Assembly: GCA_001871495.1 (NCBI GenBank)
Contig: MNVG01000035.1
Span: 1-33,512 of the forward strand
Direction: 5' to 3'
Source: Candidatus Micrarchaeota archaeon CG1_02_51_15
GTDB lineage: Archaea > Micrarchaeota > Micrarchaeia > Norongarragalinales > UBA8480
DNA: 33,512 bases
In this document: positions 705-2,906 of the stretch, in pieces
Layout: each line of letters begins with the position of its first letter
How positions within the stretch are numbered: the first letter of the stretch is position 1
The notes under the pieces: generated by a model
Databases searched by the model: none
What the model was told of the DNA's origin: nothing
What the model saw: the letters and a program-made list of their open reading frames with translations, nothing else
Translations under genes and position numbers: made by a program

Positions 705-756
705 GTAAGAAAAAAGAGAATGCCGCAGGGGAGACTTGAACACCCGGCCTCCAGAT

Positions 757-792
757 GGCTTAGAGCAAAAACCTTGAGTTTGCTTTTGCGCT
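757..792 (-). other. tRNA-Met intron 2 (36 nt, compatible with canonical 37/38 position)
   Basis: Sequence AGCGCAAAAGCAAACTCAAGGTTTTTGCTCTAAGCC between CTCATA and ATCTGG; one-nt boundary ambiguity. Confidence 0.8.
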
Positions 793-799
793 TATGAGT

Positions 800-833
800 T
801 TCGTGCAGTCCTTTTTAGGTTAAAAAAAGGCTA
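800..833 (-). other. tRNA-Met intron 1 (34 nt, between positions 30 and 31)
   Basis: Sequence TAGCCTTTTTTTAACCTAAAAAGGACTGCACGAA; hairpin CCTTTTT/AAAAAGG; boundary fixed by anticodon stem complementarity. Confidence 0.8.
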
Positions 834-929
834 CTGGCGCTCTATCCAGCTGAGCTACTGCGGCAACTTAATTATTTGGGGCAACCAATCAATAAAAACC
901 AGTGAGGCGTAAGAAGCTCTGGGTTAATA

Positions 930-2652: not shown

Positions 2653-2699
2653 GCGCGTCACAATAACTAACGCGCTCCAGTCGTCTAGTTCGGTCAAAG

Positions 2700-2742
2700 T
2701 AACTTTTTTTTAAACAAAAAAAGGCGTTTTACTGCCGAAAGG
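2700..2742 (+). other. tRNA-Glu intron 1 (about 43 nt) in the D-arm 3' strand
   Basis: TAACTTTTTTTTAAACAAAAAAAGGCGTTTTACTGCCGAAAGG; removal restores GTCT/AGAT D-stem pairing; one-nt boundary ambiguity. Confidence 0.78.
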
Positions 2743-2778
2743 ATACCGGCCTTTCAAGCCGATGACTCGGGTTCAAAT

Positions 2779-2822
2779 GCAAGCAAAACTGCGTTTTGCA
2801 GCTTTTTCGCTTGCGCGAAAAT
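2779..2822 (+). other. tRNA-Glu intron 2 (about 44 nt) in the T-loop
   Basis: GCAAGC/GCTTGC helix with inner CTGC/GCAG hairpin; removal restores GGGTTCAAATCCC; boundary can slide within AAAT. Confidence 0.8.
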
Positions 2823-2906
2823 CCCGGCTGGAGCACTCGTTTTTTTACAACACTCTGACAGCAACGACTTTGGGTTAGACCGTAATTGCCTATTAACGCG
2901 TCGAAT

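Follow-up and report, generated by a model that had tools for sequence, protein, structure and literature searches.

A tRNA-Met(CAU) gene with two predicted introns in the anticodon arm, and intron families shared between tRNA genes, in a lineage of Micrarchaeota

tRNA genes interrupted by more than one intron are known in ARMAN-1, ARMAN-2 and the Thermoproteales (PMC4033280), and reviews give three as the maximum number of introns per tRNA (PMC4033280, PMC8450103). Among the archaeal splicing endonucleases, the epsilon2 type has been reported to accept relaxed motifs (PMC4033280, PMC12397907). Introns have also been found in archaeal mRNAs, including that of cbf5 (PMC2738675). Given the multi-intron precedents, the gene presented here belongs to an already known kind.

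The window, i.e., the whole stretch of 33,512 nucleotides of Candidatus Micrarchaeota archaeon CG1_02_51_15 that was analysed, carries the gene of an elongator tRNA-Met(CAU) on its minus strand at 721..864, corresponding to a precursor of 144 nt. All parts lie on the same strand. Exon 1 (834..864) comprises tRNA positions 1-30 and is followed by intron 1 (800..833, 34 nt) at the non-canonical position 30/31. Exon 2 (793..799, positions 31-37) consists of the seven bases ACTCATA with the anticodon CAU. Intron 2 (757..792, 36 nt) interrupts the canonical position 37/38, and exon 3 (721..756) contributes positions 38-73. As it stands, the anticodon region is 70 nt too long for a tRNA; removal of both introns leaves a complete normal tRNA of 74 nt, which contains CCAGACTCATAATCTGG. 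Its T stem has a U-U mismatch that is also present in a relative of the same genus. A TATA-like element, GGTTTTTATTGATT, is located at 887..900 of the minus strand, 23-36 nt upstream of the gene. In an upstream alignment it is identical in the same-genus relative, and we infer that it is the promoter element.

Rfam (RF00005) matches exactly 721-864 as one tRNA with 42.8 bits (cut-off 29), and ARAGORN types the sequence without both introns as tRNA-Met(CAT). The preliminary description had read the locus as a tRNA-Met(CAT) gene with two anticodon-arm introns, at 30/31 and 37/38, and with a mature form of 74 nt; these tools and the orthologues bear out all three points. It had also relied on the perfect anticodon stem that results from joining the pieces. 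This stem does exist, but 93 two-intron joins of the region give a 5-bp anticodon stem together with U33, and we therefore rejected the stem as proof.

The decisive evidence for the two-intron reading comes from the comparison of orthologous sequences. The pattern GAGCGCCAG-N-ACTCATA-N-ATCTGG occurs in four of the 29 genomes of the order, all of one family, while its reversed version occurs in none of the 29. In the same-genus relative (G001), both introns are found at identical sites, and the exons agree in 30/31, 7/7 and 34/36 positions, i.e., in 71/74 (96%). Intron 2 is identical in 30/37 positions, and intron 1 in 20/45, which is no better than shuffled sequence (shuffled mean 0.46). Exon 2 is likewise identical (7/7) in the family orthologues compared. 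Both introns are also present in three further genomes of this family (G002, G004, and G006), and a fourth (G005) has the 37/38 intron only. Moving to the other relatives within the order, three carry both introns (G016, G017, and G024), one has only the intron at 30/31 (G028), and six have the one at 37/38 as their sole anticodon-arm intron, some of them with another intron elsewhere in the gene (G008, G010, G011, G019, G020, and G026). The tRNA-Met of G023 is intron-free. A class-wide search also returned matches to the 30/31 junction outside the order (G043, G063, and G158), which were discarded as their sequence looks protein-coding and not like a tRNA.

For the bulge-helix-bulge (BHB) motifs, a fixed rule was applied: two exon bases and one intron base in the 5' bulge, two intron bases and one exon base in the 3' bulge, and four central pairs. 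For intron 1, the outer helix (h) is formed by G22A23G24 with C32U33C34 (GAG/CTC, 3/3), the bulges are AG^T and AA^A, and the central helix (H) pairs C25G26C27C28 with the four intron bases preceding the 3' bulge. In this species, H is reduced to two of four pairs (CGCC/CACG), and in the same-genus sister to three of four. It is complete in 8/10 orthologues with an intron at 30/31, compared with 4/495 other 4-mers of the same introns, where two of the eight (G016 and G024), having been retrieved by a search for GGCG, do not count as independent cases. For intron 2, the anticodon stem itself serves as h (5/5), the bulges are TA^A and CC^A, and H combines C32-A35 with, usually, TRAG or TGGG. Here it reads CTCA/TAAG with 3/4 pairs and one C-A mismatch. 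All 18 orthologues with an intron at 37/38 form three or four of these pairs, most of them four, and among other 4-mers four pairs are reached in 8/702. The boundaries of G019 and G052 were reset by eye, since the automatic ones lay too early; both have TGGG before the bulge.

As both motifs require C32-C34, in the outer helix of intron 1 and the central helix of intron 2, they cannot form simultaneously, and splicing would have to proceed stepwise. This is in good agreement with the tRNAscan-SE 2.0 paper, according to which closely spaced introns likewise need stepwise removal (PMC8450103). When intron 2 is taken out of the G002 and G004 sequences, RNAfold predicts the motif of intron 1 without any constraint. 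The preliminary description had found a strict BHB motif drawable for neither intron and had suspected that a relaxed motif or ordered splicing might be needed. BHB geometry can now be drawn for both introns; the two suspicions fit the half-complete central helix of intron 1 and the shared use of C32-C34, respectively.

The genome encodes a splicing endonuclease of 385 aa (contig C15, locus L022) with two PF01974 and two PF02778 stretches, which aligns in full length with the ARMAN-2 enzyme 4fz2 (375 residues, E 4e-119). It displays the alphaN-alpha-betaC architecture in one chain, the catalytic Y/H/K triad and the ARMAN-specific loop Y160-K161. Kept are GTYK (Y160, K161), K228, Y236, H251, R275, K282, and W384, whose roles, together with the broad substrate range of the epsilon2 type, have been described (PMC12397907). 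We predict from its sequence that L022 is a three-unit epsilon2-type endonuclease like that of ARMAN-2. RtcB is encoded on contig C37. The relatives of the endonuclease are almost exclusively Micrarchaeota (best identity 87%), and the enzyme of 'Ca. Norongarragalina' LFW-144_1 is 71% identical; judged by these relatives, the host order is most likely 'Ca. Norongarragalinales' (PMC8561730).

From exon conservation, intron positions, BHB geometry in the relatives and the presence of the enzymes, all of them read from sequence, we consider it very probable that 721..864 is a functional, single-copy Micrarchaeota elongator tRNA-Met(CAU) gene with two protein-spliced archaeal introns. Transcription, cutting, ligation and order are inferred from these observations. 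The precursor would be transcribed as a whole, and a homodimeric epsilon2-type endonuclease would cleave each intron at its two bulges. RtcB would then ligate the exons, among them the 7-nt middle exon bearing the anticodon, and the two introns would be removed one after the other. As only half of the intron-1 central helix is retained in this species, removal of this intron probably relies on an ARMAN-type enzyme with its relaxed specificity.

The same two missing pairs are what a decaying pseudogene, whose intron 1 is no longer spliceable, might display, and the first base of intron 1 can moreover pair in a rival CAGT/ACTG helix in this species. We nevertheless regard decay as very unlikely, as the exons have stayed 96% identical to those of the same-genus gene, the promoter-like element is retained, and cleavage of relaxed motifs has been reported for the epsilon2 enzyme. 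No other elongator tRNA-Met was found in the assembly either, although at a MAG completeness of 91% a further copy could be absent from it.

A second reading originates from the annotation software. ARAGORN at default calls no tRNA anywhere in the window; with introns allowed, it types 721-864 as tRNA-Arg(TCT) with one 63-nt intron. The expectation that default annotation would miss or mistype the gene was thus correct. That the locus truly is a tRNA-Arg(UCU) gene is extremely improbable, since this reading drops ACTCATA, a stretch that every orthologue retains even as the neighbouring introns vary, and since single-intron orthologues show CCAGACTCATA-intron-ATCTGG, uninterrupted at 30/31. A single-intron fold of 721-864 was rejected on conservation. 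Two introns with other boundaries, such as CCAGT + CTCATAA + GCTGG, would also yield a 5-bp stem and a CAU anticodon, but we give them scarcely any credence, because the base after CCAG/CTAG differs between orthologues (T, A, C or G), ACTCATA is invariant wherever the 30/31 intron is present, and the boundaries proposed here follow the BHB rule across the relatives. Two other intron-bearing tRNAs (L013 and L016) are mistyped by ARAGORN as 'Stop(tta)' and Ser(gga); their sequences resemble Gln(UUG) and Pro(GGG), respectively. For genomes of such intron-rich archaea, standard tools will arrive at tRNA counts that are too low.

Among the relatives of the two-intron gene, the tRNA-Met(CAU) of G009 (L035/L169, contig C42) contains four predicted introns of 53, 30, 37, and 62 nt at 30/31, 37/38, 45/46, and 56/57, each with four of four central pairs, and represents a normal 74-nt tRNA once they are removed. 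Our literature search for a four-intron tRNA found no report. The same tRNA-Met with zero to four introns among relatives constitutes a natural series, in which intron gain, splicing order and the tolerable decay of the motif could be studied.

The window holds a second two-intron tRNA gene, a tRNA-Glu(UUC) on the plus strand (2674..2835), which is missed by ARAGORN and by Rfam at its cut-off. Its D-loop intron (2697..2739, 43 nt) shows H CGGT/GCCG with these boundaries, the pairing being read from the sequence; its T-loop intron (2778..2821, 44 nt, position 59/60) conforms to a BHB motif. The latter is near-identical to the T-loop intron of tRNA-Asn (z 14.3, 0/100 shuffles). The Asn, Glu(CUC) and Glu(UUC) genes share an intron family in their T loops (L020, L152, and window 2778-2821). 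Of the tRNA genes encountered in this genome, 17/28 contain at least one intron; the 28 are a partial set, some gathered via intron searches, and the proportion is no unbiased estimate. T-loop introns occur in the Ala, Ile, Lys, Asn, His, Ser, Glu, and Arg tRNAs of this genome, and in these the loop UUC pairs with GAA (GGA in Ser) preceding the 3' bulge.

Another intron family is recognized by the hairpin CTTTTTCTTT-AAAGAAAAAG and a tail behind it, for instance AACCCCAAAAAGAAA. Six different tRNA genes of this genome contain it, four in the T loop (Ser, Ile, His, and Trp) and two in the anticodon loop (Arg(UCG) and Glu(CUC)) (L149, L150, L151, L152, L153, and L177). Here, 5/5 hairpin matches and 6/6 tail matches lie inside tRNA genes, and the reversed pattern gives no match. 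The introns of Ser, Ile, His, Arg, and Glu(CUC) resemble each other with z 11 to 27 against shuffles. The family extends to the relatives, three of which have it in or beside tRNA genes, and the 30/31 intron in the tRNA-Met of G006 is a member (z 8 to 13). This distribution suggests intron transposition outside the Thermoproteales. Intron 1 of the window's tRNA-Met is only weakly similar to the shared families (best z 3.4, to the Glu D-loop intron, 1/100 shuffles), so that we claim no common origin with them. Apparent D-arm or anticodon-arm inserts, e.g., between GCTCAGCC and GGGAGAGC, were also seen in other tRNA genes of the order (L038, L044, and L045).

An insert of the same type is predicted in a protein-coding gene. 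The sole rtcB found in the genome, on contig C37, has a 27-nt insert with an in-frame TAA inside HEG-Y-GFPIGG, and the predicted splice junction restores the consensus tyrosine. At this site, the rtcB genes of G026 and G020 each carry an insert of 32 nt, and that of G015 has a 32-nt insert at another site, GGVGY-DINC. All four inserts (L148, L166, L167, and L168) follow the BHB rule with four of four central pairs. The rtcB mRNA is thus predicted to carry a BHB-type intron, and its splicing may need its own RtcB product. A literature search for an rtcB intron found no report, which is no proof of absence.

Judged by these sequences, the lineage is unusually rich in tRNA introns, and some of these are related copies that occupy different sites. 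The related introns at different tRNA sites, the four-intron relative and the predicted rtcB mRNA intron lead us to a further reading, to which we would assign about even chances: BHB introns may be actively moving between genes in this lineage, with position 30/31 of tRNA-Met as a recurrent landing site, and the capacity for tRNA splicing may itself control the ligase that it uses. In our view, the intron families, the four-intron tRNA-Met and the putative rtcB intron are more interesting findings than the tRNA-Met gene alone.

The comparison with known systems begins with ARMAN-1 and ARMAN-2 (PMC4033280), which likewise are Micrarchaeota with more than one BHB-type intron per tRNA and an epsilon2 endonuclease. 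The lineage studied here differs in its order and in the 30/31 and 37/38 pair in tRNA-Met, with the ARMAN tRNAs known to us by their published listing. Multi-intron tRNAs thus reach another order of Micrarchaeota with the broad-specificity endonuclease type, as a co-evolution of enzyme and introns would predict. The endonuclease aligns over its full length with that of Ca. Micrarchaeum acidiphilum ARMAN-2 (PDB 4FZ2, 9W2K) and shares its catalytic triad and the ARMAN-specific residues of the loop, but is an orthologue from another order, known here from its sequence. Canonical and non-canonical introns within one tRNA, spaced so closely that the motif of one can form only after the other has been removed, are a feature shared with the Thermoproteales (PMC4033280, PMC8450103) and with the Atabeya-/Freyarchaeia (PMC11291895), the Asgard likeness being one by description. 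The Thermoproteales further resemble this lineage in having related introns at different sites. The preliminary description had drawn its parallel to the Thermoproteales, and multi-intron tRNAs are indeed known there, but the host is a Micrarchaeota archaeon and no relative of that group, and its predicted endonuclease is of the epsilon2 type, whereas that of the Thermoproteales is (alpha-beta)2.
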